Below, piece after piece: positions 12,095-54,965 of a stretch of 64,000 nucleotides of DNA. This stretch comes from Eubacteriaceae bacterium (GTDB lineage: Bacteria; Bacillota; Clostridia; Eubacteriales; Anaerofustaceae). Under the pieces are notes generated by a model. The model was not told where the DNA came from. It did not search any database and was given only the letters and a program-made list of their open reading frames with translations. The DNA lies in contig JAFZLL010000032.1 of the NCBI GenBank assembly GCA_017551505.1, positions 1-64,000 of the forward strand, in the 5' to 3' direction. Each line of letters starts with the position of its first letter. Position 1 is the first letter of the stretch. A program made the position numbers and the translations under genes.

Positions 12095-12196
12095 ACCGCC
12101 TATCGGCTGAATAGCAGCAGTGATTCTGCTGCCTATGGCGGCGCTGAAGTTTCAGATGGCATAAGAGGATCTATTGCTGAGAGAAAGCAATAAAAA

Positions 12197-12239
12197 AGTG
12201 AGTCAGTATATAGAGGGCTTTGCCTTTTGCTGACTCACT
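12197..12239 (-). terminator. Intrinsic terminator of the acetyl-CoA-synthase-like gene
   Basis: A perfect 10-bp stem (AGTGAGTCAG / CTGACTCACT) encloses a 23-base loop. On the minus strand it is followed by TTTTTTATTG. It lies 26 bp beyond the stop of the minus-strand gene. Confidence 0.8.
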
Positions 12240-12264
12240 GTATTTTATGGCCTGATCATGTCTC

Positions 12265-14364
12265 TTATAGTTTTTCCATTAAGTAGGCGGGATGATTCTG
12301 ATAACCTGCCAATACGGCGATGCGCTCGAAATCAGTGGATCTGGTCTCGTCGCTGACCCGGTAGGAAAAGTTGCCGTCATCGGAGATCTTGTCCAGCCGA
12401 ACGCCAAGTCTGTCCTTGAGCGATTTGGGCATCCAGATTATCCTTTTAACGCCGCCGGAGGCGTTCATGAACTTCCCTGATACAAGGAAGTCGGCAGATA
12501 CGCCTTCTATCCCTTCCGCAGTTTCTCCTCTGTCAGCCGTGTGCGCGGCTTCGTCGTAAGAGGCGATGTTTCCGGGGACGGTACCGTCATAATCCTTATA
12601 GGCGATGATGATCCCCTGCCTGTCCGGGGAAGTGATTGCGTAACACTCGGCAAACGGAATCTGAGGGGTACCGGGCATGACTGAGTCGTACAGTGCCGCT
12701 TCGCGCTGCGTGCCGGCGGCATCCTTCAATGCTCTGTTGACGTCGGGGCAGATACCTCTGTCCTTATCGGTGAATTCGGCGGAAACTTCCTGGAAACCGG
12801 ACTTTTCACTGGATCTGTATGAAGTCATGGCTGTTATGTAATCTATCCTGCCGCATTCTCCCTGCCTGGAAGGGGTTATGACGCAGTACCTTCCCGGGCA
12901 GCGGGCAGAACACTTCGCGCATATATAGAATCTGTCGCAGTTATCATCGCGGATGCTTCCTGTCTTGTCGTCTGTCTGGAGCAGCTTCGGTCTGCCGACG
13001 CGGTCGATGAGTTTTCCGACCTTTTCTTCGTCAGAAATGACCGATATCTGGGCTTTGTCGACGATGCCACCAAATTCGGCCTTGATGCCGTCGTAAACGA
13101 TCCTTCCGAGGATATATGGAGTAAATCCGTTCCTTAGTGCTGTATTGGAGACCTTCAGCACCATTTTGCCGTTTACGATCCTGCAGGATACCCCTTCTGC
13201 ACTGTCGATCCATTCGGGGATCTTCCTTTCAATGACTGCTTCCGCGATGTCATTGAGCTTTTCTCCGCAGATCTCAGCCATTATGAATAGATGCTCGTCT
13301 ATTTTGCCGGAGATGAATCGCTCCGAACCTACGGTCTCCACCATCCTGTCGGTAATTCTGTCCGGCAGGCGGGTAAGTGCCATCGCCCATGTTCGGCCGA
13401 TGTCTGTCCCTGCTGCGTAAACGGTCTCTTTATCCGCAATATCCGCAAAACGGAAGGCATCGTTAGTGCCTACGGGGATATCGGATCTTTTGTATTCCGG
13501 CAGTCCGTTTATTTTTACCGAGCGTTCAGCAAAGCTGTAGAATTCGGACTCGCTCTCGAAGGATCCGGGCAGTACGCATTCACCAAGAGGAGCATTGGCA
13601 AGCACGGGTATTCCCAATGTGATTAGTCCTGCGCATACGGCAATGTCTTCGCTGTTAAGCTCACCGAATACATTGGCGCAGCAGTATGCTTTTTCGTCGA
13701 TATACCTGATGACGGAAGCCTTATCACCGGGAGCGACACTGCCGAACATCATAGCCATGCGTACAAGGGCGGAAACAGCGTAAAACGCGGTCTCCTTGTT
13801 CTCTCCGCAGGGAAGCACCCACTCAGAGCCATGCCCCGGGGAGTATTTGGCTTTTATGGCTGAAGGAACGAAGACTCCTGCGCCCTGCCTCAGGTACTGC
13901 TCCGCTATGCGGTTTACACCCTGCTCGTCCGATATCACCCCGGAAATAATATACACGCCGTACATTTTAAGGCTGCAGAAATCAAAACCTATCTTTCTCA
14001 GCTGATAATCCGGAATGAACCCTTGTGTTGTAGCAGGATCCGCCAGGCCGCAGCAGTAAGCGGTTATCTCGTTAGCCATGAGAGCGGTGAGGCCGTATTC
14101 CAGACCGTCCTTTGTGTCATCGGTTATATCCGCCTCGTTCGCAGGCAGGTTCTTTTTTATATCCTCCAGTACATTCAGAAGATCTTCAAGCGTATGGCAT
14201 TTTATGCCTGTAAGTGCGTATATGATAGGCAGAGAATAAGCGGTTTTGCGGAAAGGCAGTTCCGATCTCGCGCCGTATTCCTCTATCGCGCTGACGATGG
14301 CATTCTGAGCATTGTGGATGCAGGCTTCAGTTCCCCCGTAAACCAATCTGGTAAGCAGGCTCAT
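12265..14364 (-). CDS. Acetyl-CoA synthase (AcsB/CdhC) homologue lacking the nickel-binding Cys-Gly-Cys motif
   Basis: A 699-residue protein with the length and layout of bacterial AcsB: an N-terminal region that in AcsB contacts CO dehydrogenase, a middle region, and a C-terminal A-cluster domain. The four [4Fe-4S] cysteines C482, C485, C494 and C504 have the spacing C-x2-C-x8-C-x9-C, equal to C506/509/518/528 of the Moorella enzyme with a constant offset of 24. The same offset puts Phe571-Ala572-Glu573 where Cys595-Gly596-Cys597 should bind the two nickels. Downstream RIIWMPKSLKDRL matches the family. So a cubane is likely, but a Ni-Ni site is not. No CO dehydrogenase or corrinoid protein lies nearby. 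The gene diverges from a UPF0280 gene. Its function is unknown. Confidence 0.88.
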   Translation of the reverse strand: MSLLTRLVYGGTEACIHNAQNAIVSAIEEYGARSELPFRKTAYSLPIIYALTGIKCHTLEDLLNVLEDIKKNLPANEADITDDTKDGLEYGLTALMANEITAYCCGLADPATTQGFIPDYQLRKIGFDFCSLKMYGVYIISGVISDEQGVNRIAEQYLRQGAGVFVPSAIKAKYSPGHGSEWVLPCGENKETAFYAVSALVRMAMMFGSVAPGDKASVIRYIDEKAYCCANVFGELNSEDIAVCAGLITLGIPVLANAPLGECVLPGSFESESEFYSFAERSVKINGLPEYKRSDIPVGTNDAFRFADIADKETVYAAGTDIGRTWAMALTRLPDRITDRMVETVGSERFISGKIDEHLFIMAEICGEKLNDIAEAVIERKIPEWIDSAEGVSCRIVNGKMVLKVSNTALRNGFTPYILGRIVYDGIKAEFGGIVDKAQISVISDEEKVGKLIDRVGRPKLLQTDDKTGSIRDDNCDRFYICAKCSARCPGRYCVITPSRQGECGRIDYITAMTSYRSSEKSGFQEVSAEFTDKDRGICPDVNRALKDAAGTQREAALYDSVMPGTPQIPFAECYAITSPDRQGIIIAYKDYDGTVPGNIASYDEAAHTADRGETAEGIEGVSADFLVSGKFMNASGGVKRIIWMPKSLKDRLGVRLDKISDDGNFSYRVSDETRSTDFERIAVLAGYQNHPAYLMEKL

Positions 14365-14401
14365 ATTGTACTCCGTTAATGGTTAATGAATGTATGATAG
14401 A

Positions 14402-14430
14402 ATTATAACCGTATCATTAAGATCAAGCAA
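14402..14430 (-). promoter_or_regulatory. Promoter of the acetyl-CoA-synthase-like gene
   Basis: On the minus strand TTGCTT (14425-14430) and TATAAT (14402-14407) are separated by 17 bp, 38 bp upstream of the start codon. Confidence 0.65.
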
Positions 14431-14487: not shown

Positions 14488-15198
14488 ATGGAAGAGCGGA
14501 CATACCGGGAATACTGCATCGCTGAAGACCTGACTTATTATAACGTGACGCTGGGAGAGAGCGACCTGATGATCGCAACAAAGGAAGACATGAGCGCACT
14601 TTGCCGGCGATTCATCAGAGACTGCAGGGAAGAACTGATCGGATATATCCGAAAGGAGCCTTTCTTTAAGGAATCCCTCGCGCCGATGGAATGCCCTGAG
14701 GATTCCCCGCGGATCGTCAGGATCATGTGCGCTGCTTCCATGAAAGCTCATGTCGGGCCTATGGCCGCCGTGGCCGGAGCCATATCCGAACTGCTTTGTG
14801 AATATCTTGCGGACTTTACGGATGAGATTATCATCGAAAACGGCGGGGATAACTGCATCCTGACATCCAAAGGACGCACTGCGGGCATATACGCCGGGTC
14901 CGGGTTCCCTGAAGGCTTAAAGATAGCGGTCGATGCGAAAAAGACCCCTTGGGGGATATGCACCTCTTCCGGCACTATGGGCCATTCTTTCTCTTTCGGA
15001 ACGGCGGACGCGGTGACTGTCATCTCGGATTCCGCCGCCCTTTCCGATGCCTCGGCAACGTATATTGCCAACAATATCAGGGATTCATCCGACATTGAAA
15101 GCGCACTTGAAAAAGCCATGTCCATTGACGGGATCAGAGGGGCCGTTATCATTGCTGGAGGCAAACTCGGTGCGATCGGTGAGGTGCGGTTCGTCTGA
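14488..15198 (+). CDS. UPF0280 family protein (ApbE-like fold)
   Basis: A 236-residue member of the uncharacterised UPF0280 family, which shares the fold of the flavin transferase ApbE. Family marks are HVGPMAAVAGAISELL (about 90-105), IIENGGDNCIL, GICTSSGTMGHSFSFGTADAVTVISDSAALSDASATYIAN, and the C-terminal GAVIIAGGKLGAIGE. UPF0280 is frequent in methanogens and in anaerobes with one-carbon metabolism. Here it is divergently transcribed, 123 bp from the acetyl-CoA-synthase-like gene, which suggests a shared role. No reaction is established. The ribosome site is GGAG at about 14476. Confidence 0.85.
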   Translation: MEERTYREYCIAEDLTYYNVTLGESDLMIATKEDMSALCRRFIRDCREELIGYIRKEPFFKESLAPMECPEDSPRIVRIMCAASMKAHVGPMAAVAGAISELLCEYLADFTDEIIIENGGDNCILTSKGRTAGIYAGSGFPEGLKIAVDAKKTPWGICTSSGTMGHSFSFGTADAVTVISDSAALSDASATYIANNIRDSSDIESALEKAMSIDGIRGAVIIAGGKLGAIGEVRFV

Positions 15199-51780: not shown

Positions 51781-51888
51781 TAGATAATGTACTGAGTCGT
51801 TATTTTCTGCACATTTTCAACTGATAAGATTACAGCCGTGAAGACTATGTTATTTGCAGTCAGCACGGTTTTTATAAGGAGGATTGTC

Positions 51889-52578
51889 ATGAGAGGAATC
51901 GCTTATGGTGTTGGAGTCGGCCCCGGAGATCCGGAGCTTATGACTCAAAAAGCTATCCGTTTGATCAGGGAAAACGATGTGATTGCAGTTGCAGGCAAAA
52001 CAGCTACAGAAGCAGTTGCTTATCAGATCGCTGCCGCCATGGTGCCTGAGATCCAGGATAAAGAACTGCTGCCGATCTATATGCCAATGGTCAAAGACCG
52101 GGATCTGATCGATGCTGAGCATCAGAAAGGCGCAAAATTACTGGAAAGCTATCTTGATAAAGGGCAGAATGTTGTCTACATCACTTTAGGTGATCCTACC
52201 ATTTACTGTACTTTCAGTTATCTCCAGCACATATTGGAGAAAGACGGATACACGGTGGAACTGGTGCCTGGTATCACCTCCTTCTGTGCTGCATCTGCCA
52301 GGCTGAATCTTCCGCTGGTAGAGTGGGATGAACCTCTTCATGTCGTTCCTGCAGTACATAAAACACACGAAGAATTGGATCAGCCCGGAACATATGTGCT
52401 GATGAAGTCCGCCAGCCATATGCAGGAAGTTAAAGAGATGCTGCGGCGCAGCGGACTGGATGTTTCCGCTGTTGAGAATTGCAGCATGGAAACAGAGAAG
52501 GTCTACCGCAGTGTGGATGAGATTCCTGATGACGCTGGTTATTTCTCATTGATAATAGCCAAAGAGCACCATGATTGA
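51889..52578 (+). CDS. cbiL: Precorrin-2/cobalt-factor II C20-methyltransferase
   Basis: A 229-residue SAM-dependent tetrapyrrole methyltransferase that adds the C-20 methyl to cobalt-factor II (or precorrin-2) on the way to corrin. The N-terminal GVGVGPGDPELMTQKAIRLI is the family signature. YITLGDPTIYCTFSYLQ is the second substrate/SAM region, and VPGITSFCAASARLNLPL the third. The ATG at 51889 follows AAGGAGGA. It overlaps the next ABC ATPase gene by 8 bases. No other cbi genes are here except cbiK, the step just before. Confidence 0.93.
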   Translation: MRGIAYGVGVGPGDPELMTQKAIRLIRENDVIAVAGKTATEAVAYQIAAAMVPEIQDKELLPIYMPMVKDRDLIDAEHQKGAKLLESYLDKGQNVVYITLGDPTIYCTFSYLQHILEKDGYTVELVPGITSFCAASARLNLPLVEWDEPLHVVPAVHKTHEELDQPGTYVLMKSASHMQEVKEMLRRSGLDVSAVENCSMETEKVYRSVDEIPDDAGYFSLIIAKEHHD

Positions 52579-53407
52579 GATTAGGAACCTGACAAAACGG
52601 TTCGGGGATTTTACAGCGGTTGATCACTTAAACCTCACGGTCAATACCGGAGAGTTCTTCGGATTGCTTGGGCCTAATGGAGCAGGGAAGACCACGACCA
52701 TCAGCATGATGTCCACGGTATTGCTGCCATCTGAGGGAGAGATACGTATCGATGGACAGCTGTTGGACCGTAAGGCGTCGAACCAGAAGAGAAAACTCAG
52801 TGTCATAACGCAGGAGTACTCCATGCGGCAGGATATGACTATTGACGAAGTGATGGAGTACCAGGGACGTCTGTATCATCTTCCAAGGAAGATGATGCTC
52901 GAGAAAAGCGACGAACTGTTGGAATTCGTTGGACTTAAAGAATACCACCGCCGCACAGTGCGCCATCTTTCGGGAGGGATGAAGCGCAAGGTGATGATCT
53001 GCCGAGCTCTTCTTATCGAACCTGAGATATTGATTCTGGATGAACCTACCGCGGGAATGGATGCCCTATCCCGCCGCCAGATGTGGAATCTTCTCAGGCA
53101 GGTGAATGGGAGAGATATGACCATCATCCTGACGACTCATTATATAGAAGAGGCTCAGGCTCTCTGTGACAGGGTCGCGCTGATAAATCGGGGATCTCTG
53201 CAAAAGCTGGATACACCATTAAATCTAATAGATGAACTTGGCGCATATGCGGTGGACGAGACGACAGAAGACGGTCTTAAGAGCAGGTTCTTCAGTAACA
53301 GGGACGAAGCGATCTCGTATCTTTCTCAGGCAGGCGAAATGGCTTCTTTCCGCGCAACCACGCTCGAAGATGTATTCGTGGAATGCGCCGGACGCAAAAT
53401 AAGTTAG
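52571..53407 (+). CDS. ABC-2 type transporter ATP-binding protein
   Basis: A 278-residue ABC ATPase of the exporter (NatA/DrrA/CcmA-like) group. Walker A GPNGAGKTT (about 34-42), Q-loop ITQEYSMRQDMTIDE, signature LSGGMKRKVMICRAL, Walker B ILILDEPTAGMD, and H-loop TTHYIEEA. A C-terminal extension of about 60 residues follows. It pairs with the permease encoded 11 bp downstream. Overlap with cbiL indicates joint expression. The cargo is unknown; context suggests a tetrapyrrole or a surface component. Confidence 0.9.
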   Translation: MIEIRNLTKRFGDFTAVDHLNLTVNTGEFFGLLGPNGAGKTTTISMMSTVLLPSEGEIRIDGQLLDRKASNQKRKLSVITQEYSMRQDMTIDEVMEYQGRLYHLPRKMMLEKSDELLEFVGLKEYHRRTVRHLSGGMKRKVMICRALLIEPEILILDEPTAGMDALSRRQMWNLLRQVNGRDMTIILTTHYIEEAQALCDRVALINRGSLQKLDTPLNLIDELGAYAVDETTEDGLKSRFFSNRDEAISYLSQAGEMASFRATTLEDVFVECAGRKIS

Positions 53408-53418
53408 GTGGTAATACT

Positions 53419-54150
53419 ATGGGTATAATAACTGTGTTATGGGAAAAGTGGGTGGAGTTTCGCCGTGATTTCTATAAGATTACTGTCTCAGCCATGATAT
53501 CACCGCTTATGTATCTCGTGATTTTTGGTATGGGGATACAAACGACATCGCACGGAGAGCCATATCTTCATTTTTTAATCCCTGGGATTGTTTCCATGGC
53601 CACTATGACCGGTAGCTTCAGTGCGATCTGTCAGAATATGAGCGTCCAGCGTCTTTATGAAAAGGCTCTGGATCAGGTTATGGTCTCTCCGACTCCTTTG
53701 TGGCAGTTTATACTTGGGCAGATCATAGGCGGAAGCCTCAGGGGGCTTTATGCCGGCTGCATCATTTTATTCCTGACGTGGCCTATCCGTACGGATCTTA
53801 TATTCAATGGGCTGTCCATTCTGATAATGTTCCTCAACGGCACCGTTTTTTCTACCATCGCTCTGGTCCTTTCCTTCCTTGCAAAGAGTTATTCTGATGC
53901 TCCGCGCTTCACGTCTTTTATCATTACTCCGATGTCGTTCCTGTGCAACACGTTCTTTTCGACTGAACAGATGCCTGCAGGCTTCCGGCAGCTCATATCT
54001 CTGCTGCCGTTGTCTCAGACAAGCGCTATGATAAGGGCCATCGCAAATGAGGAGTCACCGGGCATATTTGGATTTTTGGTGCTCGGGGTTTATCTTGTCG
54101 TGTTCGGGATCATATCGGTGGTCTTCATCTATAAGAAAAAGAATCTCTGA
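53419..54150 (+). CDS. ABC-2 type transporter permease
   Basis: A 243-residue integral membrane protein with six helices and the ABC-2 layout: a short cytoplasmic start (VLWEKWVEFRRDFYKITVSAMISPLMYLVIFGMG) and the conserved late block FIITPMSFLCNTFFSTEQMPAGFRQLISLLPLSQTSAMIRA, which is the ABC-2 signature. It forms a homodimer driven by the preceding ATPase. The ATG at 53419 is preferred over one inside the ATPase gene. cbiK follows 11 bp later. Confidence 0.9.
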   Translation: MGIITVLWEKWVEFRRDFYKITVSAMISPLMYLVIFGMGIQTTSHGEPYLHFLIPGIVSMATMTGSFSAICQNMSVQRLYEKALDQVMVSPTPLWQFILGQIIGGSLRGLYAGCIILFLTWPIRTDLIFNGLSILIMFLNGTVFSTIALVLSFLAKSYSDAPRFTSFIITPMSFLCNTFFSTEQMPAGFRQLISLLPLSQTSAMIRAIANEESPGIFGFLVLGVYLVVFGIISVVFIYKKKNL

Positions 54151-54161
54151 GGAGAAATGCG

Positions 54162-54965
54162 ATGGAAATAAAGAACGGAAAAAAGGCTCTGCTTGTCGTC
54201 AGTTTCGGTACTACATATTCCGATGCACAGTCCCATATCACTGATGTGGAGACTTCACTGCGCAACGCTTTCCCGGACCATTCTTTTTACCGCGCATGGA
54301 CAAGCAATGTGCTGCGGAAAAGACTTGAAAAAGAAGGCGAACATATATTTTCTGTAGAAGGCGCGCTGGAATGCATGGATTCAGAAGGTGTGGAAGAAGT
54401 AGTCGTTCAGCCTACTCACATGCTTTACGGGGAAGAATATCGTCGCACAGAAGAAACGGTGCGCTTTTATGCGGAACGGTTCAATAAGCTCTCTGCCGGA
54501 GCCCCGCTGTTGGCTGATGAGGATGATGTGACTGCGCTGACCGGTATCCTTGAAAAAGAATATCCGGTAGAATCCGGGGAGCTCCTTGTTCTTATGGGCC
54601 ATGGAAGTGCCAGTATGTCTTTCCCTGTATATGATCTGATGGAACGGCAATTCAACCTTGATGGGTTTAAACAGGTGTGTATAGGTACTGTAGAGTTTGA
54701 CCCTGGTATTGAACCAGTTCTGACCCGCATTAGACGGGCAAAGCCTAAACGAGTGCATTTGGTCCCTCTGCTGGTTTCGGTAGGCGGACATGTCATCAAC
54801 GATATGGCAGGAGACGGAGAGGATTCCTGGAGGAATCAGATCTTAAGGGAAGGTACCGAAGTGAAATGTCACCTGACAGGACTTGGGGAAGTTGAAGCGG
54901 TGAGGGAAATGTATATTCAGCATGCAAGATGCGCACGGGTCATAACGGAGGATGTATCGAAATGA
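54162..54965 (+). CDS. cbiK: Sirohydrochlorin cobaltochelatase CbiK
   Basis: A 267-residue class II chelatase that inserts Co(II) into sirohydrochlorin to give cobalt-factor II, the substrate of CbiL. The active site matches CbiK: His147 (LMGHGSA), Glu178 (TVEFDPG) and His210 (SVGGHVINDMAGDGEDSW). The N-terminal LLVVSFGTTYSDAQ is the first beta strand of the fold. No signal peptide, so cytoplasmic. GAGGAGAAATGCG precedes the ATG. The stop overlaps the next gene by four bases (ATGA). Confidence 0.94.
   Translation: MEIKNGKKALLVVSFGTTYSDAQSHITDVETSLRNAFPDHSFYRAWTSNVLRKRLEKEGEHIFSVEGALECMDSEGVEEVVVQPTHMLYGEEYRRTEETVRFYAERFNKLSAGAPLLADEDDVTALTGILEKEYPVESGELLVLMGHGSASMSFPVYDLMERQFNLDGFKQVCIGTVEFDPGIEPVLTRIRRAKPKRVHLVPLLVSVGGHVINDMAGDGEDSWRNQILREGTEVKCHLTGLGEVEAVREMYIQHARCARVITEDVSK

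Follow-up and report, generated by a model that had tools for sequence, protein, structure and literature searches.

An acetyl-CoA synthase homologue that keeps the [4Fe-4S] ligands and lacks the nickel motif, a candidate for repurposing

Acetyl-CoA synthase (ACS) is counted among the most ancient and least variable of metalloenzymes. The window analysed here, a stretch of 64,000 nucleotides from a Eubacteriaceae bacterium, raises the question of what an ACS homologue might do when the nickel half of its active site is gone. A first-pass annotation, made from the letters alone, had proposed such a protein, with the [4Fe-4S] site kept and the nickel site lost. The ACS-like protein is encoded by a 699-aa open reading frame (ORF) on the minus strand, and the plus-strand reading of the same interval is riddled with stops (Table 1). 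The inverted repeat downstream separates the ACS-like gene from a converging GNAT gene; a T run follows it on the minus strand, which makes it terminator-like.

Table 1 Coordinates of the ACS-like gene, its metal-site segments and the surrounding signals in the window
Feature	Position	Strand	Basis or remark
Inverted repeat	12192..12244	.	15-nt arms, 87% complementary, 23-nt loop
ACS-like protein, 699 aa	12265..14364	-	ATG at 14364-14362; profile and PDB matches, predicted fold
Conserved GG-x2-RIIWMPKSLK block	12400..12456	-	about residues 637-655 (alignment)
I569-P570-F571, replacing the nickel-binding Cys-Gly-Cys	12652..12660	-	alignment
[4Fe-4S] ligand loop C482-x2-C485-x8-C494-x9-C504	12853..12921	-	codons 12921-12919, 12912-12910, 12885-12883, 12855-12853
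GGAG ribosome-binding-site-like sequence	14371..14374	-	6 nt ahead of ATG, read by eye
Promoter-like TTGCTT-17-TATAAT	14402..14430	-	upstream of the ACS-like gene, by eye; weak (first hexamer only 3/6; not listed by the automatic promoter scan)
UPF0280/COG2122 gene (PRK04334)	14488..15198	+	divergent to the ACS-like gene

The ACS-like protein matches the profile NF040764 at E 4e-110 and 369 bits, short of the curated cut-off of 800 bits, and all three AcsB Pfam domains (PF19436, 4.7e-39; PF18537, 3e-17; PF03598, 1e-14). Its whole chain could be aligned to a solved ACS (PDB 6ytt, 1.6e-73), and its homology to AcsB is full-length and covers the three domains. By these scores, the homology of the gene to bacterial AcsB is far beyond chance. 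A single-sequence structure prediction gave a pLDDT of 35, and an AlphaFold2 model from a 46-row alignment was used instead (pLDDT 85.4, pTM 0.83). Foldseek aligned this model to monomeric ACS in the closed state (7nyp) with a TM of 0.92, and VIA gave a Z of about 40 against ACS across about 690 residues. The predicted fold is that of ACS; as the 46 sequences are mostly canonical ACS, the model speaks for fold compatibility and is not independent proof.

In an alignment to 157 canonical ACS sequences, Moorella AcsB among them, C482, C485, C494 and C504 correspond to Moorella C506, C509, C518 and C528, as the first-pass annotation had stated. The constant offset of 24 residues that it reported holds through the Fe-S loop, but a net deletion of two residues between the loop and the nickel motif raises it to 26 at the latter. 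The F571-A572-E573 it had placed at the motif is numbered two too high, and the alignment sets I569-P570-F571 against Moorella C595-G596-C597. The loss itself is unchanged by the renumbering. C-x-C occurs nowhere in the 699 residues, so the nickel site is gone, and an alternative alignment that restores a Cys-x-Cys site is excluded.

Other parts of the active site have changed as well. Q510 and H419/Q422/R423 are replaced, the latter three in a region of domain A2 that we take to lie near the CoA site. The CO alcove of ACS consists of G145, I146, V149, F229 and F512 (PMC11321310), which read G, F, C, F and R in the window protein, with only G145 and F229 kept. Judged from these residues and from missing partners, acetyl-CoA synthesis by the ACS-like protein is unlikely. 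A working ACS with an unusual nickel site could appeal to the full fold and the bridging C485, both kept; however, the lack of any C-x-C, the loss of H419/Q422/R423 and F512, and a genome in which neither CODH nor the corrinoid protein was found make it extremely improbable.

The same cysteine signature without Cys-Gly-Cys (CGC) was found in one genus-mate (G006) and in two more genera (G011 and G012). The CGC is kept in 156 of 160 distinct ACS sequences; the rarity of its loss is an estimate, since it covers the matches whose locus was fetched and read. All four CGC-less proteins come from one bacterial family, 13 genomes of which were surveyed, and the motif is replaced by F-A-G in G006, I-G-A in G012 and C-G-S in G011. 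Since the same kind of loss appears in three further genomes, it is not a sequencing error. The survey also took in all 67 genomes of the order, the best 80 loci from GTDB contigs, and three sets of about 390 genomes (class, phylum and another order); among the sequences read beyond the family, no further CGC-less ACS was found. Loci of same-order genomes are identical to Acetobacterium and Alkalibaculum records, and the order is thus theirs. The open-access literature searched, which leaves most subscription papers outside, yielded no account of an ACS without the nickel motif.

Several other ACS-like loci were recorded during the survey. Two low-scoring matches of another family, L242 and L243, were ruled out as CGC-less, the CGC being intact in both; their ORFs (L242:2950-6408 (-), 1153 aa; L243:3-2963 (-), at least 987 aa) are AcsB-AcsD-like fusions by appearance. 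L239:3638-4465 (-) and L240:3635-4462 (-) encode a 276-aa protein that matches the ACS A2 region only, and the gene is flanked by a CooC-like ATPase on one side and, on the other, an HgdC-type activator accompanied by 2-hydroxyacyl-CoA-dehydratase-like genes. A 356-aa ACS-like ORF of G790 (L215:3470-4537 (+)) keeps the CGC and has a start resembling the CODH N-terminus, and is either a gene fusion by deletion or an assembly chimera. G011 further carries a very divergent solitary ACS with the CGC kept (SCGCFQN; L023:10476-12359 (-)) and, on another contig, a second, broken ACS copy (L220:3239-3910).

Across the 157 canonical ACS sequences aligned, there is hardly any variation in the CGC, the cluster cysteines or the alcove, and 146 columns are at least 98% invariant. 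Forty of these columns are kept in all four CGC-less proteins, whose mutual identity is 25-36%. They include all four cluster cysteines (hypergeometric 0.005), invariant in every canonical sequence as well, and neither of the two nickel cysteines; the GG-x2-R-x2-WMP-x2-LK block and the terminal DE and HP are also among them. Changed in all four are V149 and F512 of the CO alcove, C597, Q510 and H419/Q422/R423, while C595 is retained in G011 alone. By this pattern the nickel, CO and probably CoA sites have gone, whereas the cluster ligands remain. The invariance of the cluster cysteines, set against the changes at the nickel cysteines, across most of the CO alcove and in the A2 H/Q/R motif, agrees with the earlier suggestion that ACS could have given rise to a new Fe-S enzyme or scaffold.

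Whether the four proteins share a new active site can be asked of the same alignment. Only three residues, I496, Y509 and S623, are common to all four yet mostly missing from canonical ACS, which hardly points to a single new active site shared by them; nor is there any conserved substrate-site motif. This bears on a re-tooled A-cluster, in which C485, C489 and C574, with C476 nearby, would hold another metal near the [4Fe-4S] cluster and give a new redox enzyme or transferase. C476 and C489 are indeed common to the window and G006 proteins, where canonical ACS has V and A/S, and C574 is kept in three of the four. However, the G011 and G012 proteins lack C476 and C489, the few shared non-canonical cysteines are about as expected at 35% identity, and the lack of a substrate-site motif adds to making this reading improbable. 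We also give little credence to a genus-specific new metalloenzyme, whose loop with the extra C476 and C489 would bind another metal or cluster for chemistry unrelated to CO.

For the window gene and its G006 orthologue (35% protein identity), fourfold sites have reached saturation, the identical fraction being 0.24 against an expectation of 0.30; gyrA and recF behave in much the same way. Shuffled sequence would hold about 32 stops, yet all four genomes carry an unbroken ORF. The persistence of the ORF and of the cluster ligands despite saturated synonymous sites therefore favours selection rather than decay, which bears out the first-pass view that the gene is not a decayed pseudogene. In the tree, the CGC-less end branches are 2.5-8 changes per column long, where the median is 0.21. 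Constraint is thus loose outside the core, and the branches also fit weakened constraint. A relic in decay, left as the final gene of a vanished Wood-Ljungdahl operon and drifting without function though still unbroken, would account for this extremely fast evolution, for the absence of key pathway families from the window genome and G006, and for a locus resembling an operon remnant. We nevertheless consider it unlikely, because the frame has stayed open through saturation, the four cluster cysteines are retained at such low identity, and G012 keeps its CGC-less copy alongside canonical acsB and CODH.

A single origin of the four CGC-less proteins is weakly supported (81). When the CGC-less rows are placed one at a time, those of the window, G006 and G011 group with gut-type AcsB (the G009 copy, Lachnospiraceae and Oscillospiraceae), and the G012 sequence falls elsewhere; these placements, all on very long branches, are tentative.

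The window assembly (1.56 Mb) contains one CdhC-domain protein, the ACS-like protein itself. The first-pass annotation rightly saw no adjacent CODH or corrinoid protein gene; neither CODH nor CdhD/AcsC/AcsD was found anywhere in the window genome or in G006. The assembly is 96.6% complete, so a gap is possible for the missing genes, and the genus-mate agrees with their absence. G012 has the full canonical set, including acsB and CODH, beside its CGC-less copy; in G011, CODH is present and an ordinary AcsB was not found. Elsewhere in the window genome, another contig carries NifH/NifD-like nitrogenase-related genes about 2.7 kb from a formate-tetrahydrofolate ligase gene (L223:1944-5595 (+)). 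The window itself holds, by eye, precorrin C20-methyltransferase-like, ABC transporter and cobaltochelatase-like genes (51838-54965 (+)), possibly for corrin synthesis in a genome without the Wood-Ljungdahl corrinoid protein.

In G009 and G010, UPF0280 is divergent to a cooC-acsD-acsC-acsE operon, which in G010 and G008 has acsB as its last gene; these gene names were assigned by eye and by PF03599 matches. The window shows UPF0280 diverging from the ACS-like gene alone, with nothing intervening. In G006, UPF0280 lies on another contig and the ACS-like gene is still beside typA. The simplest reading of these few genomes is a collapsed Wood-Ljungdahl operon, from which cooC-acsD-acsC-acsE have disappeared, leaving the acsB-derived gene. 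UPF0280 is a synteny marker, its functional partnership being only putative, and the locus comparison revealed no neighbour conserved across the four CGC-less genomes that points to function. Desulfovibrio needs COG2122 to form homocysteine (PMC5764234), and UPF0280 and DUF39 genes co-occur in the same seven family genomes, which, with UPF0280 as the divergent neighbour, could make the ACS-like protein their partner in homocysteine synthesis. Co-occurrence led us to reject this link: G011 and G012 have CGC-less ACS without UPF0280 or DUF39. The separate contigs in G006 also speak against it, and the operon remnant explains the neighbourhood better, which leaves the partnership very improbable.

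With moderate confidence, we read the ACS-like protein as a repurposed (exapted) ACS that would retain its [4Fe-4S] cluster for redox or sensing use. Its most likely ancestor is the AcsB copy that closed a cooC-acsD-acsC-acsE-acsB operon beside UPF0280; the Wood-Ljungdahl pathway would have been lost from the genus, with only the acsB-derived gene staying behind. The protein would most likely fold like closed AcsB and bind one [4Fe-4S] cluster through C482, C485, C494 and C504 in domain A3. With I569-P570-F571 occupying the place of the two-nickel Cys-Gly-Cys, no condensation of CO, methyl and CoA would be expected. The product may be a soluble protein with a [4Fe-4S] cluster used for electron transfer or redox/Fe-S sensing, and its possible effector is the ancestral hinge joining domain A1 to domains A2-A3. 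The redox or sensing role is the weakest step of this explanation, proposed as the most economical reading; cluster occupancy, the absence of nickel in vivo and the operon history are likewise inferred.

As a natural variant that separates the two halves of the A-cluster, [4Fe-4S] and nickel, the protein suggests that they can uncouple in evolution, and it offers a natural comparison protein for A-cluster studies. A lost pathway may leave one gene with another job. For annotation, a PF03598 or PF19436 match alone is no proof of acetyl-CoA synthesis.

Among known systems, acetogenesis without canonical CODH/ACS is reported from another lineage (PMC7000372); that lineage has no ACS homologue at all and is thus not the same case. 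With bacterial AcsB (CO-methylating ACS; NF040764; PF18537, PF03598 and PF19436), the window protein shares the three-domain fold, the length, 25-31% identity, the four [4Fe-4S] cysteines, the GG-x2-R-x2-WMP-x2-LK block and the C-terminal DE and HP. It differs in lacking the Cys-Gly-Cys, in the replacement of I146, V149, F512, Q510 and H419/Q422/R423, in its score (369 bits against the cut-off of 800) and in a genome where CODH and the corrinoid protein were not found. Archaeal CdhC and short bacterial ACS have the A2-A3 core in common with it (TIGR00316, E 4.7e-43; 9c0s_E), whereas the window protein has the bacterial A1 domain and no CGC; the short forms L212, L213 and L214 keep the CGC. In the Acetobacterium group, L218:6384-8396 (+) and L219:5281-7284 (+) encode a dynamin-like GTPase (PF00350) that ends in the C-terminal half of ACS A3 (PF19436, E 1.9e-18), with RIIWMPKSLK present and the cluster and nickel cysteines absent. 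These fusions resemble the window protein in placing ACS sequence outside CO chemistry, in the RIIWMPKSLK block and in having no CGC, but they contain half of A3 without cluster cysteines, whereas the window gene is a whole ACS.
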